Shown piece by piece: positions 3,001 to 59,173 of a DNA stretch of 64,000 nt. The position numbers were made by a program, and so were the translations under genes. Origin of the DNA: an archaeon (GTDB taxonomy: Archaea > Thermoproteota > Nitrososphaeria > Nitrososphaerales > Gagatemarchaeaceae); contig JAKASL010000001.1 in assembly GCA_021819035.1 (NCBI GenBank), positions 434,001 to 498,000 on the forward strand, read 5' to 3'. The notes beneath the pieces are model-generated. The model did no database searches, had not been told where the DNA came from, and saw only the letters and a list, made by a program, of their open reading frames with translations. Every line of letters starts with the position of its first letter. The stretch's first letter is position 1.

Positions 3001-6000
3001 CGACACTGTGACGGGGGCGGTCGGCGATATCTACGACGGAACCAGCTTCCACTACGGCCAAGGCACCGCTGGACAGCAGATAATGATCTACGACCCGTCC
3101 GCAAACGAGCTCTTCACCTCAGTGGGCTACCTGACTTACGCGGAGGTATTCGGCGCCATCTCCATTGTGCGCCCGCTCAACGTAACGTTCGTCCCTGTCT
3201 CCTCGTCATCGCTCCAGGTCAGCACCTTGCTCCCCGACGGGAACCCAGTTTCAGGGGTGTCGGTGTCGGTGGCGGGGCTTGAATTTATCACAGGAACGGC
3301 TGGAACCCTGACCTTCACGGGCCTCCCCTCGGGGGCGAGCGAGTCCGTCCAGGCGTGCATCGCAGGCCTATGCACCACGAAGACCATGACGCTGGCCCAG
3401 GGAACCAACACTATCTCCTTCGAGGTTCAGCCCGTCCAGGTCTCCGTCGTAGACCCGCAGGGGGGACCCGTGGGAGGCGTGCAGCTGACCTACTCGGGCA
3501 CGGGCGGAGTCGCAGGGCTCTTCACCACGAACTCCAGCGGCCTCGCCCCGTCAGTCCTCTCGCCGTCAGGCGCGATTCTCACGGTCTACACAAACCTGTA
3601 CGGCACCGGTCTCCCCTACGCGACGCCTCCTGTCGAGTCGTTCACAGCCAACGGCACCATTCCGGTGATAAGGCTGCAGCCCATGCCCACCGGGACGCTT
3701 CAGGGTCTCGTAGCCTACACAAACGGGACTCTGGTGGCTGGCGCCCGCGTCACTTTGAACGAGCAGGTCAACGGCCTGACGCTCACAGACAGCACGTCGA
3801 CGAATTCCACCGGCGGATACTCGGCCACCTTCTACGCAGGCCAGATCACGGCGTCGGCAGTCTCGCCTCTCTACTATTCGTCCTCACCAGAATACGCCTC
3901 CATCCAGCAGGGCGGAGTGACTACACTGAACCTCACGATACCAGTGACAGGGACTGGGTACATCAACCTCCAGCTCTACACCCAGTACCTCGGAGGCACG
4001 CTGCAGGGGCCGCTCCCTGTCGACTGGAGGGTCGGAGTCCACTACGACATCTACGCACAAAATCCCGAGGGGAACACATTCTCCGTCTCAGGAGCCACGC
4101 TTCCGTCGGGTCAGCTCGTGGAGAACATAATCCCTGTCACAGGCTACGCGGGCGAGCGGTTCACAGTCTGCGCGGACGGCTACGAGGCGAACCTCCCCTC
4201 CGTGTGCGTGCCCGTCGCGCTCGACGCCTATAGGAACGCCACCGCGGTGATCAAGCTCATCCAGCCGGGGGTGTTGAGTGGCACCGTCGTAGACGCGGCG
4301 ACGGGCTCCCCCGTCTCGTCATGGAGCGCCAACGTCTATTCGCTGAACGCGACGGGCTACGCCAGTTACGTGACGGGCATAGGGAACTCCACGTCGTCCC
4401 TCTATTACGGCGTCCCGCAGCTCGGCGAGTACAGGCTCGACGTCTTCAGCTACGTGGGCTCTGACGAGCTCTGGGGGGAGGTGACCGTCAACGCCTCGGC
4501 TTCGCAGGTCTACCAGCTCGGGAACGTCTCCCTCTACATGGGTGCAGGGGACCTCTTCACGGGGAAGGTCGGTAACACGCTGAGCGTCATCCCCGGCCAG
4601 TCCGCGCCCGGCGGGACCCTCTTCCTGAGGGCGACGTACAACTACACGGGCTCGTTCGCCCTCGGCAACGTTTCGGTGCTCTTGCCGGCCCCCGCGGGGA
4701 CGACGGCGGTGGCTGGAGGCTTCCTCTTGGACGGGAAGCCTGTCAACGCCTCGCTCTCCTCGTCAGGGTACTACTCCGTCCCGCTCGGGAACATCTCTTC
4801 GGGCGCGTCGGGGGAGGTGAGGTACGAGCTCCAGATAGGGGACGGTTACAACGGGTCGTCTCTCGCCCTCCTCGCGCTCGTGAACTATACTGTGGGAGGG
4901 AAGGCGTACGAGGAGGCGCTCGCCACCGCAGTCGAGACCGTGGAGCAGGTCACGCTCTCGGCCCCCCTCTCGCTCTCCACCCTGAACACCACAGTCTCGG
5001 GCCAGGCGCCCCCTGGGAGTGCGCTCGACCTGTATTCTAACGACACGCTGCTCGGCACCACGGTCGTCCCCGCGGGGGGCTACTGGGGGCTCGACGTCAC
5101 GCTCCCGAGCGCTGGGAACCAGACCACCTACCAGCTGCACGCCGTCGCACTCACCGCGTCTGGCGTCCACGTCTACTCCCCTTCCGTCTCCGTCGCCTAC
5201 GACAACACGGAGCCGCAGCTCGTCAGGATATGCATGGAGCAGACCGACGGGAGGCTGATGTGCTGGGACCCGCAGGACGGCATACCCCACTTCCCATACG
5301 TCTTCGTGCCAGGGATGCCTATGACATTCACGATGTGGTTCAGCCGCCCATCTTATGTGGCGGATGTCGAGGTCATAGCCCCAGGCGCCGGCAGCGCAAA
5401 CGCCACGCTGACGTCGTCCGGGGCTTTCAGCGCCACGTTCATCCCTCAAGGGGGATGGGACGGAAGCGTGTTCGTGTCGTATGCCGCTCTTGTTTCTCCT
5501 ATTGGCGACGGAAGTGTAACACCACCGTCAGCAACGCAGGTCCGCAGCGAAACTCCTTCCATCTGGAGCAAGTCGAACGTAACTCTTACGAACTACAGTG
5601 TAACGAACATCACAGGAACAGACACCACGTCTGTCACGATAAACGCCACCGTTACACCGCCGAATGGAACCCTAGGAATCCCCAACAGCACTCAGATGAT
5701 CATGTCCAGCGACATCAACATCACCGGCAATGTCTATTACATCCCGAACGCGACCGATAGGCAGTTCTTCCTGACCACAGGCTACCCTATCTTCAACCTA
5801 AGTTATGCTGTCGTGAAGAATACTAGTAGTTCGGTGTGGACGCGCGTGAGCTTCTTCGTTCCTTACGGGAGCCTACCGGCCAACATTGCGAAGCGTTTCG
5901 ACAGCCCATCTGATTACATAGCTCCTGGTTACGGGCTTACTTTAACCGTTCTTGATAAAATCGGCATTGGAGCGTTAGGGCGCGCTATCCCAGCTGCGGG

Positions 6001-8359
6001 TTTCCTCCTCTCACTCTACGGTTTCTATTCGGACGGAAAGTTTTCCGTGGACACACTGGCATCGGCTAATCATCTCATCGCATGCGCAGGCGGCAGCCTG
6101 GGCGTCTCAGGGGATTTGGCGCTCGGTTCCTATCTGTTCTTGGGAGCTGCGGCAGAGGCTGCGGGCCTCAATAACGACGCGTTCGGAGCTCTGTCTAACC
6201 TTGCGGAGTTCACAGGGCTGCCAGTTTCATTCGTAGCATCTATCGTATCGGGCGTATTGAGCGTAGGACTGACGGCTGCGGAGAACTGGGTCACCGAGGG
6301 GGTTTCACAGCTCACCGCGCAGTACTGCCCACCAAAGGTAGGCAATACCACCCCGATAGTGGACCCGAGCGGCGTTGTCTACGCCGGCCTCCTCACCAAC
6401 CCGGTGGCGAACGCCACTGTCACGGTCTTCCAGTTCAACTCCACCACGAGCCAGTGGGTCCCGTGGGGCGCCTCGGGCTACGGCCAGCTCAACCCCCAGC
6501 AGACGGACCCTGAAGGGAGGTACGCCTGGTTCGTCCCGGCGGGCAGGTACATGGTGGTCGTTGAGGCGCCTGGCTTCTCCACAGCCAGGAGCATAGTGGT
6601 CTACGTCCCGCCTCCTGCCACGGGGGTGGACATCAACCTGCTCCCGCTTTCCTCGCCTGAGGTGAGCGGAGTGTCCGCCTTCTCGAACTCCACGGGGAGT
6701 TACATCGAGCTCTCGTTCGACCAGCTGATGAAGGCGTCACTCCTCAACGGGAGCACGATAACGGTCAGCGCTCCAGGGGGGCAGACTGTCTCAGGGAGGG
6801 TCGTGCCCGTGGCGCCGCAGACCGCCCCAGACGGGGACCCGCTCACGTCAGAGGTGGTCTTCGTCCCGAGCTCACCTCTCACCGCTGGGACCAACTACAC
6901 TGTCGCCGTCTCTACGACCGTCTCGAACTACGCTAACATGACGATGTCTGCTCCATACACTGCGTCAGTGAGCCTGGCTGTCAGGAGCTACTCCCTGAGC
7001 ACGAGCGCCCTCGACTTGGGCGTGGGCGAGCCCGTCAATGCGACGGCCGCGACGAACGACCCCCTGGCCAAGGAGGTCCAGTTCACCTGGATCTCGCCCA
7101 CAGGTGAGCTTGTCTCTTCAACCACCGCGACCCTCCTCTCGTCGGAGAGCTCTGCTTCGATCACCCCCAACTCGAACGGGACTTGGGTGGTGGAGGCCTC
7201 GTTCACAGACGGGACGAACGTGATCAAGACTATCTCGCGCGCCTTCTACGTCGTTGAGCCAGCTCCCCTGTCCGGCGTCTTCGCCACGGCCACCGCCAAC
7301 AGCAGCGGCTCGGCGTCCGTCGACGACGCGCTCATAAACGGCGTCAGCGTGACCGTCACAGGCCTGGCTCCTGGGATAGGTCTGTCGGTTAACTCGTTCG
7401 ACTACCAGACGGCCCCGCCTGGGACGCCCAGCCTGGCAGGCACGGCCACGTACTTCGACCTGGAGGTCTCGGGGGCGTCCACCGGTACCGCGACTGTCTG
7501 CTTCAGCGGCGCGGCCGTCACCTCCTCCTATCTCCTCTACTACTACTCCTCTTCCACGGCCCAGTGGCTGCTGGCTTCCGGCATCGCGTTCAGTCCGCCC
7601 GACACAGTCTGCGGCGCAGTTCCTGCATCGGAGCTGAGCGGGACGCCGATGGCCACGGTCCTCCCACCAGCAACGCCCCCTCCGCCGCCACCTGCCTTCA
7701 GCTTCTCCGTCGGCGTGACGCCTGCGACGGTGACCGTGCAGCAGGGGAGCGCCGTGACTGCGACTGTAAGCGTCTCGCTCGTCTCCGGGAGCGCGCAGCC
7801 CGTCACGCTGTCGTCGAGCGGCCTTCCAAATGGAACATCGGTCTCCTTCAGCCAAGCCTCGTGCACACCAGGGTGTTCTTCAACGCTGACGATAGACGCT
7901 TCAGCCTCTGCGCCGCCTGGGAGCTACACTGTCACAATCACAGGGAGCGGCGGGGGGCAGAGCGAGTCTGCCATGCTGACACTCACTGTTACACCCGCCA
8001 CAACAACCACGACAACGACCACCACGACAAGCGCGGCCACCTCAACAACGACGACCACGTCGACAACGACCACCACGACAAGCGCGGCCACCTCAACAAC
8101 GACGACCACGTCGACAACGACCACCACGACAAGCGCGGCCAATACGACTCCGACCTCGACCACGACGGCATCCGCGACGACCTCCCAGGCGGCCCAGTCG
8201 ACTTCGGCCACATCGTCAGCGACGACTTTCGCAGCTCTTCCCCTCTCAGCGAATTATACGCTGGTCCTAGTCGCGATAATCATCATCGTCCTCGTCGCCT
8301 CGTCCATACTAGTCGCGGCAAGGAGAAGAAGCGCATCCGCCTACCATCTGAAGTATTGA
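2..8359 (+). CDS. Giant surface protein with YVTN beta-propeller and Thr-rich stalk (5'-truncated)
   Basis: The frame is open to the first base of the window, and the residues before the first GTG (56) belong to the same repeat type, so the gene starts upstream. About 2,785 residues are visible. Near the N-terminus are repeats of the form VTFxExGLPxGxxW, common in archaeal surface proteins. Residues about 320-1060 form YVTN-like beta-propeller repeats (D-x-x-N/S-G-x-x-Y/F-V). These are followed by carboxypeptidase-regulatory-like and Ig-like modules, an unusual hydrophobic Ala/Gly/Leu-rich stretch near residues 1970-2090, more Ig-like domains, a Thr-rich stalk, and one C-terminal membrane helix (nt about 8254-8320) ending in basic residues. 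N-x-S/T sequons are abundant. It is probably a glycosylated, membrane-anchored adhesin or S-layer-associated protein; the ligand is unknown. Confidence 0.88.
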   Translation, partial: DGYCVSPSSRTLVINGSDVSQTIQFTNSGCHTVTFDESGLPDGELWGATLSGFNSSATAPSTVSFTEPDGNYTYSVSYVGNFGEIGVIDYCQSPYGGSVGVQGADVSVPVQYSICGGAGLWTVSVRTNSVFYSGTETVLVNGNVTTSPRVNFTTFATVTLTDPLGGVIRSDTVAVNATTGLFQDNFTTGGQGWIGGTYTVTAYWPTGPGCTSSYYECSFSQPTYQFGYLPSGPTYQVTFVEGGLPQGTPWTMTFANVTKTSTSSTISYSFPDGYYPYTVRDLGPYVPQLPPRTQMVLVNGSGVTEDVGFTYSEQLLLYNDTLYPGPVLTSYGAYNQQIRQMAYDSVDGMLYVLTSNAPNTILGVNVTVKHITQDFAVTGNIGTLTVDPLSGDLFVTNSSVLSNTVLSNTVNSYYLGETITIIDPVTGAVVAVVPLLPHPSASEYINGVLSAGFAGSTDTFYALADIININSSYTYSTQVVYAISGTNGAVESNFTVSVSGSGASSYFSSMSVDPVHGTVYLGGSFRNSTFSGSSILVLKPSPWTVISNATLSLSLNSISYDSRNGLAYLAFGDYSFGCGSGGGLYSFDANTSVFAKVGSMVCAANATFNPANGDLYVSSPVFSSTYEISYGMSVVDPATSTIIANITRLTGFQGGAVDTITSVNTITSVNTVNGDVYIASSNSYAVSVVGSSNTVASEILLGATPGAMAYSSDGMVFVADQQTNTLWVLNATTGQVEGNVPVPTVSIGGMVYDPTNGYLYVVDSRSSVASVRCTPFPGGGGYTCNSFTYDNVTVFNTRTDTVVTTIPVNTTTGSPFEGVSLVSAAYDPVSNRIFVTGSNANEGFVFVIDASSNALVGNISLGAHPSATGAIAYDSVTGYVYSLGGEECIGYCQVESSDRLYAINGSTDAVVTNSSVPLSNAMAIDSKTGTIYTVGDGFSSSFELAAVNATTGNVIAVTPLPCSSVPNAVYCGTTAAVYDPVNGEVYTAVSMGGYPILAFYDTVTGAVGDIYDGTSFHYGQGTAGQQIMIYDPSANELFTSVGYLTYAEVFGAISIVRPLNVTFVPVSSSSLQVSTLLPDGNPVSGVSVSVAGLEFITGTAGTLTFTGLPSGASESVQACIAGLCTTKTMTLAQGTNTISFEVQPVQVSVVDPQGGPVGGVQLTYSGTGGVAGLFTTNSSGLAPSVLSPSGAILTVYTNLYGTGLPYATPPVESFTANGTIPVIRLQPMPTGTLQGLVAYTNGTLVAGARVTLNEQVNGLTLTDSTSTNSTGGYSATFYAGQITASAVSPLYYSSSPEYASIQQGGVTTLNLTIPVTGTGYINLQLYTQYLGGTLQGPLPVDWRVGVHYDIYAQNPEGNTFSVSGATLPSGQLVENIIPVTGYAGERFTVCADGYEANLPSVCVPVALDAYRNATAVIKLIQPGVLSGTVVDAATGSPVSSWSANVYSLNATGYASYVTGIGNSTSSLYYGVPQLGEYRLDVFSYVGSDELWGEVTVNASASQVYQLGNVSLYMGAGDLFTGKVGNTLSVIPGQSAPGGTLFLRATYNYTGSFALGNVSVLLPAPAGTTAVAGGFLLDGKPVNASLSSSGYYSVPLGNISSGASGEVRYELQIGDGYNGSSLALLALVNYTVGGKAYEEALATAVETVEQVTLSAPLSLSTLNTTVSGQAPPGSALDLYSNDTLLGTTVVPAGGYWGLDVTLPSAGNQTTYQLHAVALTASGVHVYSPSVSVAYDNTEPQLVRICMEQTDGRLMCWDPQDGIPHFPYVFVPGMPMTFTMWFSRPSYVADVEVIAPGAGSANATLTSSGAFSATFIPQGGWDGSVFVSYAALVSPIGDGSVTPPSATQVRSETPSIWSKSNVTLTNYSVTNITGTDTTSVTINATVTPPNGTLGIPNSTQMIMSSDINITGNVYYIPNATDRQFFLTTGYPIFNLSYAVVKNTSSSVWTRVSFFVPYGSLPANIAKRFDSPSDYIAPGYGLTLTVLDKIGIGALGRAIPAAGFLLSLYGFYSDGKFSVDTLASANHLIACAGGSLGVSGDLALGSYLFLGAAAEAAGLNNDAFGALSNLAEFTGLPVSFVASIVSGVLSVGLTAAENWVTEGVSQLTAQYCPPKVGNTTPIVDPSGVVYAGLLTNPVANATVTVFQFNSTTSQWVPWGASGYGQLNPQQTDPEGRYAWFVPAGRYMVVVEAPGFSTARSIVVYVPPPATGVDINLLPLSSPEVSGVSAFSNSTGSYIELSFDQLMKASLLNGSTITVSAPGGQTVSGRVVPVAPQTAPDGDPLTSEVVFVPSSPLTAGTNYTVAVSTTVSNYANMTMSAPYTASVSLAVRSYSLSTSALDLGVGEPVNATAATNDPLAKEVQFTWISPTGELVSSTTATLLSSESSASITPNSNGTWVVEASFTDGTNVIKTISRAFYVVEPAPLSGVFATATANSSGSASVDDALINGVSVTVTGLAPGIGLSVNSFDYQTAPPGTPSLAGTATYFDLEVSGASTGTATVCFSGAAVTSSYLLYYYSSSTAQWLLASGIAFSPPDTVCGAVPASELSGTPMATVLPPATPPPPPPAFSFSVGVTPATVTVQQGSAVTATVSVSLVSGSAQPVTLSSSGLPNGTSVSFSQASCTPGCSSTLTIDASASAPPGSYTVTITGSGGGQSESAMLTLTVTPATTTTTTTTTTSAATSTTTTTSTTTTTTSAATSTTTTTSTTTTTTSAANTTPTSTTTASATTSQAAQSTSATSSATTFAALPLSANYTLVLVAIIIIVLVASSILVAARRRSASAYHLKY
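1199..1230 (+). repeat. 15-bp in-frame tandem duplication
   Basis: Two identical copies of the unit GTCCTTTCTAACACT stand head to tail, with the start of a third. The duplication is in frame and repeats a VLSNT peptide in a beta-propeller region, consistent with replication slippage. Confidence 0.85.
1974..2009 (+). repeat. 18-bp in-frame tandem duplication
   Basis: Two perfect copies of an 18-bp unit beginning ACACCATCACC repeat a TITSVN peptide in the beta-propeller. A third, diverged partial copy follows. Confidence 0.85.
8011..8141 (+). repeat. 51-bp tandem repeat coding the Thr-rich stalk
   Basis: Copies of a 51-bp unit start at 8011, 8062 and 8113. The first two are complete and identical, and the third matches for about 29 bp before diverging. 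Each unit codes 17 residues, mostly Thr with Ser and Ala. Such stalks are usually O-glycosylated spacers before the membrane anchor. The perfect identity suggests recent expansion and possible length variation. Confidence 0.9.
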
Positions 8360-8538
8360 AATCTGTGACCGCGTCCGGGCTCGGAACGGACGCCCCAACG
8401 CTGCGGCCCCGCGATGCTCTGGCTTGTAACGTCAGCCTGAGGCCTCATTCCGGGCGCGTTTCGACTTCGACGGCACGCCGACGCAGAGATTCTAGTCGGC
8501 TCATCTGACCGGCAGAAATCAGCCCAATGGCTGAGCCA

Positions 8539-8560
8539 GGTTTCCTGTTCCAGGGAAACC
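8539..8560. other. Stem-loop between the two surface-protein genes
   Basis: A 7-bp perfect inverted repeat (GGTTTCC / GGAAACC, 8-nt loop) sits 38 bp before the next start codon. A weak TATA-like GCTTAACT at 8564-8571 lies about 31 bp upstream of the next ATG. The rest of the 239-bp gap (8360-8598) shows no gene. The hairpin could be a terminator of the giant gene or an operator. Confidence 0.4.
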
Positions 8561-8598
8561 CAGCGCTTAACTGGACCTACCTTGCCTAAGCGGCGAAG

Positions 8599-9981
8599 AT
8601 GAAAAGACACACCATCCACGCGGCTCTCCTTCTTGGCACGCTCCTTCTCGGCGCGCTCATCGGCGCCGTCTCCGTGGCATCGCCGGCCGCGCAGGCCCAG
8701 CAGGCGCCCCCGCGGATCTACGTCAGCCCGTCTGGCAGCGATGCGACTGGAAACGGCTCGATTGCGAACCCATACGCGACCATCTCTCACGCCGTTGCCC
8801 TGGCACCGCCTCACGCGATAGTCATCGTCATGCCCGGCGTGTACAATGAAATGGTGAACATAACCAGGCAGTTGACCCTCGAGTCGCTCACCTCCCAGCC
8901 TTCGAGCACGGTCATCAACGCGATTGGCCAGACCTACGGCATAGAAGTCCTGGGTAGCGGCGCAAGCGGGACCGTCATAGAGGGGCTCACCGTGGAGCAC
9001 GCTAACAACCACGGGGTCTTCGTCCAAGACGCTTCGGACGTGACTGTCGAGAACAACGCCGTGGTCAGCAACGGCCTACATCCAAACGCCTGTCCCGCAG
9101 CACCGGCTCCTCCCTCAGGCCCCTGCATCGAGGAAAACAAGGCAATCGAGCTCAGCGGGACCTCCTACTCTACGGTGGTGGATAACACGGTGGTCAACAA
9201 CGTGGCGGACGGTGGCATAGGCGTCAGCGACGAGGGCCAACTGAACCCTGGCGGCCTCGAGAGCGGGGCGCCGAGCCCAGGCCTCGGGAACGTCATCAGC
9301 GGCAACACCGTGATAGGCAACACCATCGGGTGCGGCATAGTCGTGGCGGCGTACAACCCAGGTGAAGGGGTCGTCGACAACGTCGTCAGCAACAACTACG
9401 TGGTCAACGGGCTACCCGGCGGTATCGTGGTGGCGGCGGACGTCCCTCACACTTCTGCAGTTAATAACAGCGTGATATACAACACAGTGCTGAACAACCT
9501 CATCCCAGGCATCATCGTCCACAGCAACACCCCCGGGGACGTCGTCCAGGGGACCAAGATAGTCGGGAACACAGTCAGCGGCAACGGAGGCTTTGGCCCG
9601 AAAACCACGGGCATAACCCTGATCGGCAACATAAACGGCTCGACAATCGTGACAGACACCACCATCTCAGGCAACGTCGTGCACAACGAGTTCTTCGGCA
9701 TCCTCGCCTCGAACGCGACCGACACGTCGGTCCTCTCCGACAACAGCTTCGACGCCTCAGTCACGGTCCCCGTCCAGGGGGCTGCTCCGTCTCAGCTGTC
9801 ACTCGCTGCGCTCGGCGGCGAGATGAGCACCATCAGCCAGCTCCAGTCGTCCTCGGCCTCAACCGTCAGCAGCCTGAACGCTCAGGTCTCCACCCTCAGC
9901 GCCGTCTCATATGCAGCCCTAGGAGTCGCAATAGTGCTCGGCCTCGCGGCCATAATCCTCTCTGTGAGGAAGCGTGGCTAG
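8599..9981 (+). CDS. Secreted right-handed beta-helix (NosD/pectate-lyase-like) protein, C-terminally anchored
   Basis: The 460-residue product begins with a signal peptide (residues 1-34: basic start, Leu-rich core, AQAQ end). It then has the DUF1565-type entry motif YVSPSGSDxxGNG and long arrays of short N-x-V/I-x-x-N strands typical of a right-handed parallel beta-helix (NosD/PbH1 repeats). A Ser/Gln-rich coiled-coil-like stretch (about 395-430) and a final membrane helix with basic tail (about 432-460) follow. It is exported and surface-held. The fold suggests polysaccharide binding or cleavage, but no catalytic residues can be assigned. It follows the giant surface protein on the same strand and may act with it. 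Confidence 0.85.
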   Translation: MKRHTIHAALLLGTLLLGALIGAVSVASPAAQAQQAPPRIYVSPSGSDATGNGSIANPYATISHAVALAPPHAIVIVMPGVYNEMVNITRQLTLESLTSQPSSTVINAIGQTYGIEVLGSGASGTVIEGLTVEHANNHGVFVQDASDVTVENNAVVSNGLHPNACPAAPAPPSGPCIEENKAIELSGTSYSTVVDNTVVNNVADGGIGVSDEGQLNPGGLESGAPSPGLGNVISGNTVIGNTIGCGIVVAAYNPGEGVVDNVVSNNYVVNGLPGGIVVAADVPHTSAVNNSVIYNTVLNNLIPGIIVHSNTPGDVVQGTKIVGNTVSGNGGFGPKTTGITLIGNINGSTIVTDTTISGNVVHNEFFGILASNATDTSVLSDNSFDASVTVPVQGAAPSQLSLAALGGEMSTISQLQSSSASTVSSLNAQVSTLSAVSYAALGVAIVLGLAAIILSVRKRG

Positions 9982-10121
9982 GGGCCGGCCATCCCCATTT
10001 TGACCCGTGTAGTATGCCACTCGGCGTCTTTCACAATCACTCGAGGCCACGATCGATTTCGGCGGGTGCCAAAGCCCAGCCGCGCTCCATACGGATTCGC
10101 TCTGCGTCGTGGGAGGCGGGC

Positions 10122-10277
10122 ATGAAAGAGGCCGAGTATGTGAACGTGAAGATCAGACGCGAGCTGGCTTCGAGGCTCGACGACATCGCCTCCAGGCTAG
10201 GGTACAGGAGCAGGGACGAGGTGGTGGACGACGCGGTGCGGCGGTTCATGGACACCTTGGGACCACGACGGGAGTGA
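10122..10277 (+). CDS. CopG/ribbon-helix-helix DNA-binding protein
   Basis: This 51-residue protein has the ribbon-helix-helix pattern: a short strand (EYVNVKI), helix (ELASRLDDIASRLG), turn (YRSRDE) and second helix (VVDDAVRRFM). The ATG at 10122 is chosen because a purine-rich GGGAGGCGGG lies just upstream and it gives the usual family length; longer in-frame extensions look non-coding. Such proteins act as dimeric repressors. Its target is unknown; the next gene, 60 bp downstream, is a candidate. Confidence 0.72.
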   Translation: MKEAEYVNVKIRRELASRLDDIASRLGYRSRDEVVDDAVRRFMDTLGPRRE

Positions 10278-10337
10278 GCGAAGCGCCCCCACTCTCCAGG
10301 CACGGAGACAGGTCGAGTTGAGAGTGGATACGGAGAG

Positions 10338-10820
10338 TTGAGCCCTCTCCTCATCGCCGCGGTGGCATGGTTCCATCTGTTTTTTGCTGTCGTATGGATC
10401 GGGTCCTCGATCATGTTCTTTGTGGTGCTCGGGCCCGTGGTATCTCGGCTCACCCCCGTGTCGAGGGCGGAGTTCACGGTCATGTTCTTCCCTAAGATGG
10501 AACGGTTCCTGAACCTCGTGGTGCCCCTCCTCCTGCTCTCTGGTGGAATCCTGTTCGCCGCCATGTCCTGGAGCGGTCCGTTGGTCTTGGACACCTGGAG
10601 CGTTTCTGTCCTGGCTGGAGGGTCTCTGGGCCTGGTGACATACTTCTTCGCGCTCGCGAAGCTGGTCCCCGCAGCCAGGAAGGTCACGCTCCTCCTCCAG
10701 AGCGGCGGCCCCGAAGAGGAGCTAATGCGCGCTCAGAAGTCGGTCGGCCAGGCCTCCATGATGGAACTCGTCCTGATGATTGCGGCATTTACCGCCATGA
10801 TTGCTGCGGGTTTTCTGTAG
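10338..10820 (+). CDS. CopD-like four-helix integral membrane protein
   Basis: The 160-residue product has four hydrophobic segments (about 3-30, 55-80, 85-108, 138-160). The first contains the pattern WFHLFFAVVWIG, where a His sits in a membrane helix as in CopD/DUF2269-type proteins that bind copper or heme. The start is a TTG; an internal GTG is possible. It is followed tail-to-tail by the STAND regulator. A transport or redox role is inferred from the family only. Confidence 0.65.
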   Translation: MSPLLIAAVAWFHLFFAVVWIGSSIMFFVVLGPVVSRLTPVSRAEFTVMFFPKMERFLNLVVPLLLLSGGILFAAMSWSGPLVLDTWSVSVLAGGSLGLVTYFFALAKLVPAARKVTLLLQSGGPEEELMRAQKSVGQASMMELVLMIAAFTAMIAAGFL

Positions 10821-10830
10821 GCCACAGCAG

Positions 10831-13473
10831 TCACCATACAAGGGCCAGAGTCTCGTGCGCGTTGCTCGGAGGCGACGTCTCGATCTTCGCTCGGACTGAG
10901 TCCACCTGCAGGACGTAGCCGCCCGCCCCCACCCCATCGAAAGCCCTCTTAGCTTCCGTGAGCCGTCTCCTAGAAGACTCCATGTTCCCATCTTGGGCAT
11001 CGACGACTCCACGCCACCAGAGGACTCTCGCTCTCGAGACGGCGTCGCCTGAGAGTAGCCGACCAGCTCTCCTGAGGTGCCTTCCACATTCGTTCAAGTC
11101 CCCGTCCACCAGCGAGAGGCCAGCCTGGGCCAGCTCGAGGACCCCGAGCGAGTACTTCCGCTCAGTGACACGCTTCAGCTCCAAAGCCTCCTTCAGCTCC
11201 TTCCTCGCCCCCTTGAAGTCGCCGAGCTTGGCCCTCAACAGTATCCGCTCAGAGAGAACTTCGAGCAGGACGAGCCTGTTCGCGGACTCCTTTCCCAGTC
11301 GTAGCCCTCTGTTCAGGTGCGCCAGCGCCTGCTTCCTCCTGCCGGTGCGCTCGAGCGCCAGGCCTGTCGCTTCCTCGACGTATTCCGCTATGACCTTGTT
11401 CCCTGGGGGTACCCTCGGTCTCGCCTTGGCGAGGAGCGAAAGGGCGTCGTCGAAGTCGCCTTTCATGTAATGGTAGACGCCGAGAGCGGCGAGTGCCCCG
11501 GCGATGTTCCTCGCATCGCCATTGCCCTCGAATATCTCCGCTGCCGACGACCCGAGCCGGACCGCCTCGTCAAACCTGCCTTCGGTGGCCATCATGTCTG
11601 CGAGGTTCTCCATCAGGTAAGCAGCCACCGTGGGGCCCTCACGCCGGATGCCAGGGATGTCCAGGGCTATCCGACAGGCGCGCGCCGCGCCTTCAGTGTC
11701 CCCACGGGCTGACAGCACGTATGACTTGTTCAGGAGCGCGCAGGCTATGAGCACGTTGTCTCCGCACCGCCTGCCCACTGCCTCGGCCTCTCTGATGTTT
11801 CTGAGCACGAGAGCGTACTGCTTCTGCATCCTCCAGAGCGCGTACGCCCTGACGACCATCAGCCACCCTCTGACCCTGCTCCCCCCGTCGGCCGACGGCA
11901 GCGGGCCGGCGAGCAGCTCCTCCGCGAGACGCAGCAGAGGCTCGACATACCCCTCGTCTACGATCCTGGTGTACGCGTCGTCATCACGGATCACATGGAC
12001 GGCCGAGGCCGTCTGGCCGCCCTTCACAAAGTGGTAGATCGCTTCGAGGGACGAGCGTCTGTCCCCTCTCGACGCATAGTAAGAGCCAGCCTTCGCATGG
12101 GCAGCCGCCATCGGGCCAGGGATGACGGACAAGGCATCCCGAACTGCGTCGTGGACGGCGAAGCTGCCCTCCAACCCAGTCACCACTCCAGCACGTTCGA
12201 GCGCCCCTAATCTCTGCGCCAGAACTTCGTCTCTGACGTCAGAGGATTCGACCGCCCGTGCTGCGTCTAGGGGGACAGGCCCCCTGAACACCGACACCCG
12301 CTGCAGAGTCGCCAACTCTGGCGGACTAAGGACGCTTTCTAGCCAGACTGAGATGTGGTCCCTCACTTCAGACAGCGCCGTCTTCAGCGCCTTCTCCCTC
12401 CCCATCGCCTTCACAGACTCGCACATCAGGTTCAGCGCCAAAGGGTTCCCCTTGAGCGTCGCGTTGACGCGGGCTACCTCGTCCCTTGCGAGGCGCACGC
12501 TGTTCTTTTCGAAGAGTTCCGCCGTCTCTGCGTCGGTGTGCCCCTCCAGATTCAGCACGGGCACGAGACGGCTGCCGATGTAGAGCTCGCTCGGCTTGGT
12601 CCTGGACACCACGATCGTCCTGACCACCGTCGAATCGCCAAGTCGCTGCAGTAGATGCGTGATCCCGGTGTCCCTGCAGTAGTGATAGTCGTCGAACACC
12701 ACGAGCGCATTGACCCGCTCGAGCCCCTGTTGGACCTCGCCTATCAGCGTGCCCTCTTCTGAAACTCCTTTTTTCATCATGCTGGAGAGCGCGGGATAGC
12801 CATGCGCGCTCAGGAAAGCGGCAACCTTGGCAGTCACATACCTCAGGCTATCGGATTCTCTGATGCCGTGCCAGAACAGACAGGACGGGCTTCCGCCCTT
12901 CTGTCCCCTCTCTGTGGCTTCGCTGGCGAACCTGGAAACGAGGGTCGTCTTACCAATGCCAGCTAAGCCAGTGACTACGTTGAGCCCTGCCTTGCTCTTC
13001 AGCAGGAACCTGAGCTCCCTCTTCCTCCCCACGAACGCGCCGACGGGAGGGACTTTCACCCGGTAAATCTGCTGTCCCACTTCGAACGACTCGTTCCAGC
13101 CCTCGCGCTTCTCGATGCCAAGCTTCAACCCGCTCCCGTCCAGGACCACGCTGACCGAACTGACCGCCGACGAGAAGACCTTCACGTTCTTCCCAGTCTC
13201 CTTCATTCGAGCCCATCGCCCCCTGACGAGTCCGTGTCGTTCTAGCCTCTTGAGCCTCTCCGAGACATGCGACTCCCGCATGCCGAGCCGCCTTGCCAGC
13301 TCGCGGGGATACGACTCGGTCCCCATCAGGGCTGACAGGATCGATGCGTTGGCCGGGTTCGAGATGAGGTACATCGTGCTCGCAGAAGTACCAGGCGCGG
13401 CCCCCCCTGTGGCGTACGCCCGTGATGGCCCATCCTTGGCTTCTGCATTCCGTGCACCAGATTTTTCACGCAT
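10831..13473 (-). CDS. STAND-family regulator: winged-helix DNA-binding, P-loop ATPase and TPR repeats
   Basis: The 880-residue protein starts with an ArsR-like winged helix (residues about 33-105; LARRLGMRESHVSERLKRLERHGLV). An NB-ARC/AAA-type ATPase follows (about 140-480), with Walker A GLAGIGKTT and Walker B ALVVFDDYHYC. Residues about 560-865 are helical TPR-like repeats. This is the MalT/AfsR layout but with the DNA-binding domain at the N-terminus and no LuxR-type C-terminal helix-turn-helix. It is the last gene of a minus-strand set with an ABC exporter, 24 bp after the permease stop. It likely senses a ligand or protein through the TPR region and controls the transporter or distant genes. 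Confidence 0.82.
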   Translation of the reverse strand: MREKSGARNAEAKDGPSRAYATGGAAPGTSASTMYLISNPANASILSALMGTESYPRELARRLGMRESHVSERLKRLERHGLVRGRWARMKETGKNVKVFSSAVSSVSVVLDGSGLKLGIEKREGWNESFEVGQQIYRVKVPPVGAFVGRKRELRFLLKSKAGLNVVTGLAGIGKTTLVSRFASEATERGQKGGSPSCLFWHGIRESDSLRYVTAKVAAFLSAHGYPALSSMMKKGVSEEGTLIGEVQQGLERVNALVVFDDYHYCRDTGITHLLQRLGDSTVVRTIVVSRTKPSELYIGSRLVPVLNLEGHTDAETAELFEKNSVRLARDEVARVNATLKGNPLALNLMCESVKAMGREKALKTALSEVRDHISVWLESVLSPPELATLQRVSVFRGPVPLDAARAVESSDVRDEVLAQRLGALERAGVVTGLEGSFAVHDAVRDALSVIPGPMAAAHAKAGSYYASRGDRRSSLEAIYHFVKGGQTASAVHVIRDDDAYTRIVDEGYVEPLLRLAEELLAGPLPSADGGSRVRGWLMVVRAYALWRMQKQYALVLRNIREAEAVGRRCGDNVLIACALLNKSYVLSARGDTEGAARACRIALDIPGIRREGPTVAAYLMENLADMMATEGRFDEAVRLGSSAAEIFEGNGDARNIAGALAALGVYHYMKGDFDDALSLLAKARPRVPPGNKVIAEYVEEATGLALERTGRRKQALAHLNRGLRLGKESANRLVLLEVLSERILLRAKLGDFKGARKELKEALELKRVTERKYSLGVLELAQAGLSLVDGDLNECGRHLRRAGRLLSGDAVSRARVLWWRGVVDAQDGNMESSRRRLTEAKRAFDGVGAGGYVLQVDSVRAKIETSPPSNAHETLALVW

Positions 13474-56085: not shown

Positions 56086-56094
56086 GAATAGCAC

Positions 56095-56100
56095 GACTTC
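56095..56100. repeat. Target site duplication, left copy
   Basis: GACTTC, identical to 59161-59166 just outside the right inverted repeat. The six-base length is supported because the next outer bases differ. Confidence 0.88.
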
Positions 56101-56153
56101 GGGCTCTGGTAAGTTGGCGGTTGATTCAGGGCGGTGTTAAGCCTCGGTTGATG
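56101..56153. repeat. Left 53-bp terminal inverted repeat
   Basis: Exact reverse complement of 59108-59160. The first mismatch is at 56154 versus 59107. It begins GGGCTCTGGTAAG and ends GGTTGATG. Confidence 0.95.
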
Positions 56154-56156
56154 ATT

Positions 56157-56711
56157 TCACTCGGTACGCCAAAGTTTCTCCTCATTGAGGAGACGCAGAA
56201 CCCTTCTATAATGAGACGCACTCGTCGTAACTATGAACAGAATCATCATGAGGACGAACTCTACCACTAATACCAAGACAGCCGAACTAACCGACGCAAG
56301 AATGTCGTATTCGAGACCGTATAAGAGAGCTACCGCCCCTGAGATTACTACTACCAATGCTCCAATATCTCTGATTCTACGCATTGCGGGAATCAAAATT
56401 GCTTTTGCTTGTGTTATGGTCTCAAGTTCGTCCAAGCTATCGCTCATTCCGTCCAACTTTTGATTCAGTTGGTGAATTATGTCAGGGTCTTGCCCGAATT
56501 GCTGCGCTACTTTCGTCGCTTCGTCCGCCTCCTTCTGAATCTTGGGGAACTGTTCAGTGACGTACTTCTCTCTGACCGCTTGTCCTGCCGCCAAATCGCG
56601 CTTCTTTTCCTCAATCCAGCCATTCATCATTTGGAGCCAGATGAGAGCGGAAGCGGTAGTGACGCTTGGAACTCCGAGGAGTATTTCCAGAGCCAGGTCG
56701 GTTGAGACCAA
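56157..56711 (-). CDS. Element-borne membrane protein with coiled coil
   Basis: The 184-residue product has an N-terminal hydrophobic helix (residues about 5-27), a charged coiled-coil region (30-110), two strong membrane helices (about 115-165) and a basic C-terminus. Its stop is 3 bp inside the left inverted repeat. TTG start, 2 bp after the preceding 53-residue gene, so the pair is one operon. No family is recognised. It could be an immunity, entry-exclusion-like or defence cargo protein. Confidence 0.65.
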   Translation of the reverse strand: MVSTDLALEILLGVPSVTTASALIWLQMMNGWIEEKKRDLAAGQAVREKYVTEQFPKIQKEADEATKVAQQFGQDPDIIHQLNQKLDGMSDSLDELETITQAKAILIPAMRRIRDIGALVVVISGAVALLYGLEYDILASVSSAVLVLVVEFVLMMILFIVTTSASHYRRVLRLLNEEKLWRTE

Positions 56712-56713
56712 GC

Positions 56714-56875
56714 TCAGTTCAGAAGATAGAACCCAGCCGCTGATGCAGCCGTGAAGCCCACGAGAGCTATTGGCAGAACAGCCTCTCCTAACAGTGCTGC
56801 CGCTACGACTGCGCCGATGATACCGACTCCCAGCGACGCGAAGACCCCTCCGTTAACCGTCATCCGATGTGACAT
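56714..56875 (-). CDS. 53-residue element-borne membrane peptide
   Basis: The ATG at 56875 opens a small frame with two Ala/Val/Gly-rich hydrophobic segments (about 10-30 and 33-52), ending at a TGA (56714-56716). A TTTTAATAAAC box (56898-56909) is centred about 28 bp upstream, so the message is leaderless. It resembles small holin-like or toxin-like peptides in size only. Confidence 0.6.
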   Translation of the reverse strand: MSHRMTVNGGVFASLGVGIIGAVVAAALLGEAVLPIALVGFTAASAAGFYLLN

Positions 56876-56897
56876 CACGGCAAGCAGCACGAGTCCG

Positions 56898-57016
56898 TTT
56901 ATTAAAACGTTGAGTCATCTTCTGTGATACAGTCACAGAACAATGTTTCATGTTTCTCCACGTCACGTGCTATCCACGTGGATAACCGGAGGGTTAATAT
57001 AATATCCACGTGGATA
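56898..57016. promoter_or_regulatory. Central divergent promoter/operator region of the element
   Basis: Leftward TATA is at 56898-56909. An inverted repeat CTGTGA-N5-TCACAG is at 56922-56938. Two identical 14-bp perfect palindromes TATCCACGTGGATA are at 56971-56984 and 57003-57016, 32 bp (about three helical turns) apart. The rightward TATA (TTAATATAATAT, 56994-57005) sits between the two palindromes, and the second palindrome lies between TATA and the leaderless ATG at 57025. A repressor bound here would block transposase expression. Confidence 0.75.
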
Positions 57017-57024
57017 CTGGAGCC

Positions 57025-57126
57025 ATGAGCCGGGAACAACTCCGGATGGAGATGGACACGGATAGGTTCGAGGACTATCTTTCGACCCTCGAAGCCAGAT
57101 ACGATTCGGGCGAATCGTGGGACTAA
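57025..57126 (+). CDS. 33-residue leader peptide before the transposase
   Basis: A short acidic peptide (MSREQLRMEMDTDRFEDYL...) ends at a TAA that overlaps the transposase ATG (TAATG, 57124-57128). The start is about 27 bp from the TATA box. Translational coupling to the transposase is likely. It may be only a leader or a small regulatory peptide. Confidence 0.5.
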   Translation: MSREQLRMEMDTDRFEDYLSTLEARYDSGESWD

Positions 57127-58313
57127 TGAAGGAACAACCGCCCCACGACTTTCGAGAACTGAAAGGTGAGGCAATCGCCCGACAATTCGGATGGGTGAGA
57201 CGGTTGAGCGACAGCCAATACAAAGTTCACAGCCAGAGGTTGGACAAAGAGTATGACGTCGTTTCTACCGAGACGGGTTGGTATTGTTCATGTCAAGATT
57301 CTGTCTATCGCGGTGTCAGGTGTAAACATCAAATCGCAGTTGAACTGAGCTTCATACTGAGGAAAATTGTCGCAAAGGAGCCGATTAGGATTCATCCGGT
57401 CAGTATTCAGGAATGCATTTTCTGCCGTTCTGTGAATCTGAGGAAGTTCGGAGTGAGGAAGACGAAGGCCGGAGGGATTCAGAGGTTCCTATGTGCTGGC
57501 TGCGGGAGGACGTTCAGCGTGAACCTCGGCTTTGAGGGGATGAGGGCGAGTCCGCAGGCGATAACCTCAGCAATGCAACTCTACTTCACAGGCGAAAGTC
57601 TGAGAGGCGTCCAGAAGTTCCTCAGACTCCAAGGTGTGAACATCTCTCACATTTCGGTTCTAAACTGGATTCGAAAGTATGTCGGGTTGATGCACACCTA
57701 CCTCGACAGCCTGGCTCCTCAACTTGGCGATACATGGAGAACGGACGAGTTATTCTTGAAGGTGAAGGGCAATATGAAGTACCTGTTCGCTATGATGGAC
57801 GATGACACTCGATTCTGGATTGCTCAACAAGTCAGCGACACCAAAGGAACCTCTGATGTTCGACCGATGTTCAAAGAGGCCGAGGCAAAGGCTGGCAAGA
57901 GGCCGAAAGTTCTCATTTCGGACGGAGCGTTCAACTTCGGAGAGGCGACTATCAAGGAGTGGTGGACGCAAAGGAAGGAAACTAGAGTTCAGCACATCCG
58001 AGACATTCGCTTAGACGGGATGGTTCACAACAACAAAATGGAACGTCTGAATGGCGAAGTCCGTGACAGGGAGAAAGTGATGAGGGGTGTTAAAAGGGCA
58101 GACACCCCTATTCTTAGGGGGTATCAGATTTACCACAACTACTTGAGGCAACACGAGGGTCTGAACGGCCAGACGCCATCAGAAAGAGCCGGAATCAGAA
58201 TCGAAGGACAGAACAAATGGCTGACCATTATCCAGAACGCAACTCGTATCAATATGGATACAAGGAGGTGTGGCGTTAATGCCAAAATGGAAAAAGGACA
58301 CCAAACGGTTTAG
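57126..58313 (+). CDS. DDE transposase with SWIM zinc finger and zinc ribbon
   Basis: The product has about 395 residues. The N-terminus has a SWIM-type motif (YCSCQDSVYRGVRCKH, near residue 60). A zinc ribbon follows (CIFC ... CAGC, about 100-140), then a helix-turn-helix (SLRGVQKFLRLQGVNISHISVLNWIRK) and an RNase-H-like catalytic core. The acidic triad is D in WRTDEL, D in LISDGAFNF (59 residues later) and E in HNNKMERLNGEV (40 residues later), with IS6-like spacing and NN-x-x-E-R pattern. The ATG at 57126 overlaps the preceding stop; a GTG at 57117 is an alternative. The SWIM domain is unusual for IS6-type enzymes and may recognise the long inverted repeats. Confidence 0.85.
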   Translation: MKEQPPHDFRELKGEAIARQFGWVRRLSDSQYKVHSQRLDKEYDVVSTETGWYCSCQDSVYRGVRCKHQIAVELSFILRKIVAKEPIRIHPVSIQECIFCRSVNLRKFGVRKTKAGGIQRFLCAGCGRTFSVNLGFEGMRASPQAITSAMQLYFTGESLRGVQKFLRLQGVNISHISVLNWIRKYVGLMHTYLDSLAPQLGDTWRTDELFLKVKGNMKYLFAMMDDDTRFWIAQQVSDTKGTSDVRPMFKEAEAKAGKRPKVLISDGAFNFGEATIKEWWTQRKETRVQHIRDIRLDGMVHNNKMERLNGEVRDREKVMRGVKRADTPILRGYQIYHNYLRQHEGLNGQTPSERAGIRIEGQNKWLTIIQNATRINMDTRRCGVNAKMEKGHQTV

Positions 58314-58494
58314 AGTGACTGTAAATACTCATCCGACAAGAGGATACCAGTTGAACGTCCCTAAGCCGATAATCGAGCATCTCGGCAAGGGAAAGACTGT
58401 GGATTCGTTGGAATTCGCCATAAGAGGGAACCGAGTCGAACTCTGTCTCCCGACAGAGAACTTGACGAAGGAAATGTCTAAAGAGGAGAACTGA
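58279..58494 (+). CDS. AbrB/SpoVT-like small DNA-binding protein
   Basis: The 71-residue product has the swapped-hairpin AbrB pattern (FRVTVNTHPTRGYQLNVPKPIIEHLG ... SLEFAIRGNRVELCLP). The start ATG follows a strong Shine-Dalgarno AAGGAGGTG (58262-58270), rare in this window, and the gene overlaps the transposase end by 35 bp. It is the best candidate for the repressor of the palindromes at 56971 and 57003. Confidence 0.75.
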   Translation: MPKWKKDTKRFRVTVNTHPTRGYQLNVPKPIIEHLGKGKTVDSLEFAIRGNRVELCLPTENLTKEMSKEEN

Positions 58495-58498
58495 GTAA

Positions 58499-58870
58499 TT
58501 GGAGAGCTTGTCCCTGAACCTCAGATGGCATGGACTCTTCAACTGTGACGTAGACGTAGTTAGGCAGGAAGTCGAGCCGAGGGGTGGTGTGTATCGATTG
58601 ATGTCTCGGGGTGAGGATGGAAAATTCCGCACGTTCTATGTCGGGGAGTCTCAGAACCTACAAGAGCGCTTAGTCGCGCATTTCTTCGGGAGCGAACCCA
58701 ACAAGCGACTGAGAAAGATTCTGGAGACAAAGGATTGCAGATTCAAGTTCGCATACGTCGATACAGAGCAAAGACGTTTGGGCGTTGAGCGTTATTTGAT
58801 TGACTTGCTTCCGGATTTGGTCAACGACCAAACCCCAGAAGAGGCTCCAATCGAGGTTAATCTGACTTGA
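58499..58870 (+). CDS. GIY-YIG nuclease-domain protein
   Basis: The 123-residue product has GGVYRLMS, then FYVGESQNLQERLVAHF (the YIG-equivalent YVG and the catalytic Arg) and a conserved Glu in GVERYLIDLLP. This is a minimal stand-alone GIY-YIG fold. It could nick DNA during transposition, act as a homing-type endonuclease or restrict competing DNA. TTG start with GAGGAG upstream. Confidence 0.8.
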   Translation: MESLSLNLRWHGLFNCDVDVVRQEVEPRGGVYRLMSRGEDGKFRTFYVGESQNLQERLVAHFFGSEPNKRLRKILETKDCRFKFAYVDTEQRRLGVERYLIDLLPDLVNDQTPEEAPIEVNLT

Positions 58871-58872
58871 CC

Positions 58873-59106
58873 ATGTCCGGCCCCGATAAGCTGATGAAAC
58901 TAAAGACCACCGTAGAGGTTTACGAAAATGAACTCAAGGAAGCTGCGCAGGCCTTTCAAAGCTTGAGAACTGCTGCAGGTCAGCAGAGTCCAACCGATGC
59001 TGGAATCTTAGTTGCAGGCCTTGGACGGTTCTTCGATATCAATGCCAAGCTCGTTATCGCTTACCGCGAGTATGTTGCAGAATTAGAAAAGCTCGTTCCC
59101 CGTTAG
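58873..59106 (+). CDS. Small helical protein at the right end of the element
   Basis: About 77 residues, predicted entirely helical (LKTTVEVYENELKEAAQAF ... NAKLVIAYREYVAELEKLV). It follows the nuclease gene by 2 bp, or overlaps it if the TTG at 58867 is used. Its TAG ends 1 bp before the right inverted repeat. No family is recognised; a partner or inhibitor of the nuclease is conceivable. Confidence 0.6.
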   Translation: MSGPDKLMKLKTTVEVYENELKEAAQAFQSLRTAAGQQSPTDAGILVAGLGRFFDINAKLVIAYREYVAELEKLVPR

Positions 59107-59107
59107 C

Positions 59108-59160
59108 CATCAACCGAGGCTTAACACCGCCCTGAATCAACCGCCAACTTACCAGAGCCC
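59108..59160. repeat. Right 53-bp terminal inverted repeat
   Basis: Exact reverse complement of 56101-56153, ending CCAGAGCCC next to the second GACTTC copy. Confidence 0.95.
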
Positions 59161-59166
59161 GACTTC
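59161..59166. repeat. Target site duplication, right copy
   Basis: GACTTC, matching 56095-56100. The following 143 bp up to the polymerase gene contain no gene I can support. Confidence 0.88.
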
Positions 59167-59173
59167 GAGGCTT

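Follow-up and report, generated by a model that had tools for sequence, protein, structure and literature searches.

How does a transposase that moves a whole set of genes recognise the ends of its own element, and do the genes between these ends form a fixed set? The question is raised by a compact transposable element in the genome of an archaeon of the Gagatemarchaeaceae. It lies at 56102-59159 of a stretch of 64,000 nucleotides (assembly GCA_021819035.1, contig JAKASL010000001.1, positions 434,001 to 498,000; hereafter "the window", to which coordinates refer) and packs 7 open reading frames (ORFs) into 3058 bp, a density that an earlier note on the window, made from the sequence alone, had rightly pointed out. 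We consider it very probable that the element is as a whole explained as a unit transposon, in which a single IS6-like DDE transposase moves all that lies between its two long ends, of two boxes each. Sequence comparison with its relatives argues strongly for a two-headed recognition code, in which a zinc ribbon and a helix-turn-helix (HTH) of the transposase would each read a part of the end. The ends, an 8-bp target-site duplication, an element-free site in a relative, two boxes per end and the co-variation of transposase residues with end bases are all directly observed.

The limits of the element differ slightly from those first proposed. The terminal inverted repeats are indeed perfect and both start with GGCTCTG, but they measure 52 bp and not 53, one extra G having been taken for repeat. 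GACTTC, first read as a 6-bp duplication, is the inner six bases of an 8-bp one, CGACTTCG. As a check against circularity, family members were picked by perfect 18-nt terminal repeats, the duplication not being demanded. Among 35 unique pairs the abutting flanks are identical over exactly 8 bp in 27 and over 9 bp in one; in the remaining seven no length from 4 to 12 is found. Since 27 of these 35 relatives show exactly 8 bp without its being required, the 8-bp duplication was accepted, and a 6-bp duplication with 53-bp repeats was rejected. The left flank has matches in 6 of 61 genomes, its own among them. In one of the same genus (G024) the joined flanks align at 87% over 241 columns and the element is absent, which is the empty site that was to be looked for in related strains; the alignment has a 3-base gap at the junction, so that the target copy is incomplete and reads CGACTT. 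An 81-aa ORF on the minus strand has its start adjoining the insertion, and the AT-rich right flank may hold its promoter. It counts against a currently mobile unit that the element is single-copy in its own 1.67-Mb genome and that no movement was observed, which leaves recent activity unproven.

A search for the transposase in other genomes, as first suggested, brought out relatives with related ends and cargo, 78 of them delimited. Ends of the form GG....G together with an exact 8-bp duplication are present at 63 of the 124 loci with a transposase of at least 200 aa, against 5 of 2520 combinations in which flanks were mispaired between loci; the other 61 loci, many diverged or at contig ends, were not delimited. 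The end finder demanded GG and G at position 7, and such ends also surfaced in the repeat search lacking that rule. Removal of duplicates and addition of L039, which has a 9-bp duplication, gave a set of 56 elements (2095-6533 bp; GC below that of the flanks in 47 of 53). Two held-out sets added 15 elements (1970-4573 bp) and 7 elements (3085-5316 bp), so that the 78 delimited elements span 1970-6533 bp.

Each end is made of box 1 (bases 7-24) and, further in, a second copy, box 2. Box-2 scores of at least 10/14 are reached at 107 of 112 ends, compared with 1266 of 6160 mispaired ends and 6% of shuffles. In permutation the observed mean of 11.26 lies above a null of 8.69 (sd 0.13), whose maximum in 10,000 is 9.19. 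The offsets between boxes at the 107 ends are 26-28 bp in 56, 37-39 bp in 40, 46-49 bp in 5 and other in 6; the main spacing classes thus lie about one helical turn apart. At held-out ends a score of at least 10 is found in 25 of 30 (set 1) and 14 of 14 (set 2), L209 and L236 of set 1 being retained in the counts with their weak boxes. On the other side stand the ends whose box 2 scores below 10, which number 5 among the 112 of the training set and 5 among the 30 of set 1. An ungapped search was weak, with 41 of 112 ends at 11/18 or more against a mispaired fraction of 0.131, and the gapped form, which allows other spacers, was chosen after that trial, i.e. after the ends had been seen.

The bases of the box do not vary independently of the protein. 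Divergence of the zinc ribbon correlates with that of motif bases 17-24 (Mantel r 0.234, p 0.0005), whereas the values for the other transposase domains lie between -0.06 and 0.004; bases 8-12 correlate with all transposase domains, the HTH most (0.377). The top of 1308 tests of mutual information between residues and bases (55 elements) joins residue 129 to base 20 (z 20.7) and residue 108 to base 22 (z 14.7). When the end is scanned along its length, HTH residues 174-180 are the strongest partners of bases 8-11 (z 10-19) and the top ones for bases 8-12 at both ends. For bases 19, 20 and 22 the strongest partners are residues 129 and 108 (z 8-33). Judging from this co-variation, the transposases probably read their own ends through a compact modular code of residues and bases, whose rules, taken jointly and at that same likelihood, would be as follows. 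At base 20, T or F at residue 129 would call for T; R, K and mostly H for G; W or Y for C. At base 22, H, R or K at residue 108 would call for C, and D, N, F, Y or W for G. HTH residues 176 and 180 would set bases 9 and 11. The window element itself fits all four rules (T129/T20, F108/G22, I176/T9 and N180/A11).

The rules fit 53 of the 56 training elements at base 20 and 51 at base 22. Those for residues 129 and 108 were fixed before new loci were fetched, and those for the HTH were frozen before the second held-out set. Set 1 comes from 134 loci, which gave 46 calls, 15 of them kept (below 85% identity, all from newly fetched loci); set 2 comes from 33 loci, 15 calls and 7 kept. In set 1, base 20 is as predicted in 15 of 15 elements and base 22 in 14 of 15, the other having A108, for which there was no rule (permutation p 1e-4 each). 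Set 2 gave 6 of 7 and 7 of 7. Over both sets, residue 129 predicts base 20 in 21 of 22 elements and residue 108 predicts base 22 in 21 of 22, the other being without a rule. A rule for base 19 is weaker (12 of 15 held-out). Taken box by box at both ends of the 78 elements, the rules hold in 73, 74, 75 and 74 for base 20 and in 70, 76, 66 and 75 for base 22.

The co-variation could also reflect common descent of ribbon and ends, with no direct reading. All the elements are homologous, and the held-out ones are 46-83% identical to the nearest earlier element, as this explanation would have it. It appears nevertheless unlikely, because the tail motif is uncorrelated with the other transposase domains and because the signals fall on two residues instead of along the whole protein. 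It also accords poorly with a paired test on a tree of 71 elements built without the zinc ribbon (A108 being added to the base 22 rule). Where the two members of a separate pair on this tree are predicted to have different bases 20, their actual bases differ in every one of 18 pairs, both being as predicted in 17; for base 22 they likewise differ in each of 18 pairs, both as predicted in 15. Random pairs differ in 1679 of 2485 cases at base 20 and in 1374 of 2485 at base 22, i.e. with chances of 0.68 and 0.55.

Several points nonetheless weigh against direct reading by the ribbon and the HTH. The rules miss 3 of 56 training elements at base 20 and 5 of 56 at base 22. In set 2 the HTH rules for bases 9 and 11 are each right in 5 of 6 elements, with one element without a rule in each case. 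In the scan, base 12 (z 8.8 and 6.5) and base 21 (5.5 and 7.2) have these same partners, at values near the top of the background (z 7.9, base 25). Finally, the contacts proposed are deduced from co-variation and not from a co-structure with DNA.

With the two-headed code as the preferred reading, each transposase arm would bind one box in a bipartite manner: bases 8-12 would be read by residues 174-180 of the HTH helix, and bases 19-22 by residues 108 and 129 of the zinc ribbon. With two boxes per end, two protomers would sit on the same face of the DNA, ready for synapsis, and DDE chemistry would join the ends to staggered target cuts, duplicating 8 bp on insertion. If the code is true, single-residue changes would retarget a transposase to the ends of another element, and the coexistence of many mutually blind elements in the same archaeal lineages would be explained. 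How a transposase and its ends stay matched during divergence is a general question, which comes down here to a small number of residue/base pairs with predictive value for new elements; such a code might allow retargetable transposases.

The domain composition proposed for the transposase, an IS6-like DDE core plus SWIM and zinc ribbon, was borne out. Pfam gives SWIM (4e-5) and DDE_Tnp_IS240 (1.4e-11; 45.2 for a cut-off of 27, which it passes). The NCBIfam IS6 model NF033587 matches at E 2.8e-27 with 95.8 bits, under its cut-off of 125, next to weak matches to zinc domains of IS1/IS1595 and IS256 type. Across 29 homologues there is no variation in the DDE triad (D207, D266, E306) or in the SWIM and zinc ligands; in a wider alignment of 74, conservation is at least 90% for D266 and H68 and complete for the remaining DDE, SWIM and zinc positions. 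The fold model (mean predicted local distance difference test, pLDDT, 82) has the HTH as helices 143-155, 159-168 and 175-194, and its core, a DDE/RNase H fold, matches retroviral integrases and the ISCth4 transposase. Many partial matches to the transposase in the relatives span just its C-terminal 60-90 residues (about 300-376), some with stops (e.g. G000:C3:604160-604354 and G000:C1:27299-27445), and N-terminal-only pieces are rarer. This excess may come from decay together with high conservation of that region.

Transposase matches at E≤0.001 are found in 38 of the 61 relatives, the own genome counted, many of them being C-terminal fragments. At E≤1e-90, 51 of the 250 genomes searched in the class and 25 of the 398 in the phylum have one, and at E≤1e-80 matches are found in 16 of 256 genomes of the class of G533. 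By record title, the 80 named contigs kept of 163 are mostly archaeal (Thaumarchaeota and kin, Bathyarchaeota, Methanoperedens, Methanoregula, Thermoplasmata, Asgard). The exceptions are one titled Gammaproteobacteria and several from a "bacterium" metagenome-assembled genome matching G017 of the window's genus. L083 and L085 are IMG/VR contigs with a viral classification, and each holds an element flanked by 8-bp duplications; viruses may carry some elements, or these contigs may be misclassified.

The element could alternatively be an ordinary IS6-family insertion sequence whose neighbours were captured once, a chance composite. Its 8-bp duplication, its GG ends with G at position 7 and the E-value of the NCBIfam IS6 match are those of an IS6 relative. 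Such an origin is however highly improbable given that the delimited relatives all reach about 2 kb or more and that the 56 gene-called ones all carry other genes (undelimited loci are not covered by these counts), and given that the elements are bounded by the repeats themselves and not by two flanking copies of an insertion sequence. In the sections of Varani et al. 2021 (PMC7986276) available to us, IS6 members have a mean of about 800 bp, 8-bp repeats and one passenger-carrying member, ISDsp3; among the rows listed by Harmer and Hall 2019 (PMC6807381) in the part accessible, archaeal IS6-type members measure 696-853 bp, many with GG and G7, and their separation from IS6/IS26 is proposed. 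The window element shares with IS6/IS26 the 8-bp duplication, the GG ends with G at position 7 and the IS6-like DDE domain. It belongs to a family of 2.0-6.5 kb with long two-box ends, SWIM and cargo, unlike these elements of about 800 bp with one gene and short repeats, and its transposase scores below the NCBIfam cut-off. Because the size, the gene number, the repeat length and the model score depart from IS6, it was not classed as a member. The initial view that its architecture differs from IS6 thus stands for size, 52-bp repeats, SWIM and cargo, but not for the duplication. The element would operate as an IS6-type DDE transposon does, but enlarged to carry cargo. Its existence suggests that in archaea transposons of several genes can be driven by an IS6-like transposase.

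Other known systems resemble the family in part. ISDsp3 combines an IS6-type transposase, a passenger and an 8-bp duplication, but as described in those sections of Varani et al. 2021 it is a 1456-bp element of Dehalococcoides with one hypothetical passenger and no mention of SWIM. The long clostridial IS6-like elements (clades VII/VIII of Harmer and Hall, h/i of Varani) have, in the same sections, a zinc finger before the IS6-like core and an 8-bp duplication where recorded; they differ by their size (about 1.2-1.8 kb) and, among the rows listed, by repeats of about 12-23 bp, SWIM again being unmentioned there. Exchangeable cargo including defence or toxin-antitoxin genes is also known, from the portions consulted, in Tn7-like and Tn3 transposons (PMC8649781, PMC7157771), whose machinery differs from the single IS6-like transposase of the family. 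In the accessible part of Krupovic et al. 2019 (PMC6563490), where SWIM does not occur, 1 or 2 genes are given as the general content of IS-like transposons in Thaumarchaeota. The portions of the open-access literature consulted contain no description of this transposon family or of its recognition code.

Inverted-repeat/direct-repeat (IR/DR) transposons such as Sleeping Beauty, whose transposase belongs to an unrelated group, have two transposase-binding sites in each inverted repeat. The family is alike in this respect; the sites of IR/DR transposons are widely spaced, while those of the family are mostly 26-39 bp apart.

The companions of the transposase (an AbrB-like protein, a GIY-YIG nuclease, a helical and two membrane proteins) had been taken for a fixed functional module kept with it. 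One other element, L130, has transposase, AbrB-type gene and GIY-YIG nuclease in common with the window element. This is the sole counterpart of the nuclease among the 56 elements, so that the nuclease is present in 2 of 56. The membrane and helical proteins are in no cluster common to another of these elements. A direct search of 276 loci gave one weak relative of the 184-aa protein (L072, 27%), none of the 58-aa protein, and one weak match of the helical protein, within the L130 locus but outside its element. Sister elements fill the same space with other genes. A fixed module, very unlikely on these grounds, was rejected, and since the companions in the window element hardly recur elsewhere the cargo looks exchangeable. 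Gene calling gave every one of the 56 elements one or more genes of at least 90 aa in addition to the transposase. The companions recurring most are small AbrB- or ribbon-helix-helix (RHH)-like genes (RHH-like clusters of 10, 5, 4 and 2 elements, AbrB/MazE-like clusters of 5, 5, 4, 3 and 2, these names being a reading of the sequences) and a tiny ORF, about 35 aa long, that lies upstream of the transposase in 11 elements. A methylase-type cluster is found in 6 of 56 elements and other cargo clusters in 2-3. The family core thus consists of the transposase and, in most cases, a small divergent gene of AbrB- or RHH-like type; everything else is exchangeable cargo. In 43 of 56 elements such a gene is found upstream of the transposase, at most 260 bp away; the gene calls of the other 13, with none in the expected slot, speak against its generality, and the window element differs in layout, its AbrB-type gene being downstream.

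The nuclease of the window has a GIY-YIG domain (PF01541, 3.3e-5, 24.5 bits for a cut-off of 22.6). The conserved residues of this domain are Y, Y, R, E and N; Y32, Y47, R57, E97 and N109 are common to the window protein and that of L130, which also carries the same AbrB type. Other relatives are found in G054 (31%) and G029, with no transposase in the neighbouring stretch examined and no element-like ends among the repeats listed (25 of 41 for G054). A search for viral copies found none.

The cargo would repay the host, and the GIY-YIG nuclease and small membrane proteins could plausibly form an antiviral or anti-plasmid system. This host-defence reading is drawn from the sister elements, some of which carry restriction-modification genes and, by family tally, AbiV. 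Of the 246 cargo genes, 124 encode proteins of 90 aa or longer, which were run against Pfam; the best 25 of 51 families, tallied, include 5 N6_N4 DNA methylases, 3 D12, 3 N6_Mtase, 2 HSDR_N_2 and 2 AbiV, and further ThaI, Tsp45I and GmrSD (1 each), 3 proteasome-like proteins and other transposases. In a check of 20 single proteins from 15 elements, picked chiefly by size, restriction-modification genes were found in 9 elements (L026, L027, L030, L050, L110, L123, L137, L144 and L163). The other proteins are a ParA-like ATPase, a RelA/SpoT protein, two other transposases and a weak TrmB match (L026), and four without a match, one of them in L144. Some elements of the family thus carry restriction and other defence-like genes. 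With PADLOC, 195 families are listed among these 124 cargo proteins and 62 among 140 sampled of 510 flank proteins, an excess that is indicative only, the counts being of families and not of proteins. By crude hydropathy no excess of membrane proteins was found in the cargo (36 of 124, versus 38 of 140 in the flanks). For the window element itself PADLOC gives just a weak PDC-S14 match of the nuclease (1.7e-5) among the five cargo and regulator proteins scanned. It is quite conceivable, if not the reading we favour, that the cargo serves the transposon only, by regulation or immunity to a second insertion: its small proteins are of unassigned role, PADLOC is nearly silent and the AbrB/RHH slot looks regulatory. 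The restriction-modification genes of several sister elements point instead to host defence.

Some sister elements show particular features. L144 (element 4796-10458) has HsdM- and HsdS-like genes, and on inspection by eye there seems to be a third recognition box in its 93-bp repeat. L032 (element 5931-12463) has 94-bp perfect repeats and a ParA-like ATPase as cargo. Cargo proteins of L090 (3734-4543) and L155 (6758-7687) fall in one cluster and look proteasome-like by eye; the three proteins of the Pfam Proteasome tally are not named in it.

Table. Positions in the window of the element, its ends and its genes.
Feature	Position	Strand	Basis
Left target-site duplication CGACTTCG, 8 bp	56094..56101	.	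sequence; 8-bp rule; element-free site
Left terminal inverted repeat, 52 bp, GGCTCTG start	56102..56153	+	
Left recognition box 1, core GGTAAG, tail CGGTTGAT	56108..56125	+	box search
Left recognition box 2, core GTTAAG, tail CGGTTGAT, 28 bp further in	56136..56152	+	box search
184-aa cargo protein, hydrophobic segments and coiled middle, read as membrane protein	56157..56711	-	
58-aa hydrophobic cargo protein, read as membrane protein	56714..56890	-	
Palindrome TATCCACGTGGATA, putative operator	56971..56984	.	
Palindrome TATCCACGTGGATA, second copy, 32 bp on	57003..57016	.	
33-aa conserved mini-ORF, stop overlapping transposase start	57025..57126	+	cluster CL0, 11/56 elements
Transposase, 395 aa, SWIM, zinc ribbon, HTH and DDE; GTG start possible at 57117	57126..58313	+	
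Zinc-ribbon region, residues 91-135, predicted readers 108 and 129	57396..57530	+	
HTH recognition helix, residues 175-194, predicted readers 176 and 180	57648..57707	+	
71-aa AbrB/MazE-like putative regulator	58279..58494	+	weak fold model
GIY-YIG nuclease, 123 aa, cargo	58499..58870	+	
77-aa cargo protein, read as helical	58873..59106	+	
Right recognition box 2	59109..59125	-	box search
Right recognition box 1	59136..59153	-	box search
Right terminal inverted repeat, 52 bp	59108..59159	-	
Right target-site duplication CGACTTCG	59160..59167	.	

The twin 14-bp palindromes lie upstream of the mini-ORF and the transposase. Among elements with the same AbrB cluster, L155 has the palindrome TATCCGTACGGATA twice and L130 has TATCTACGTAGATA once. 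A role of these palindromes as operators of the AbrB-type protein is weakened by L026 and L027, which have the same AbrB type and no perfect palindrome, and by palindromes beside other regulators in some elements, counted without a chance control. As to the protein itself and the swapped-hairpin fold of AbrB/MazE regulators, it has no Pfam match and its AlphaFold model is poor (mean pLDDT 54). NCBIfam gives a weak match to PrlF (E 0.095). If it is such a regulator, the AbrB-type protein would bind the twin palindromes and thereby repress the operon of the mini-ORF and the transposase.

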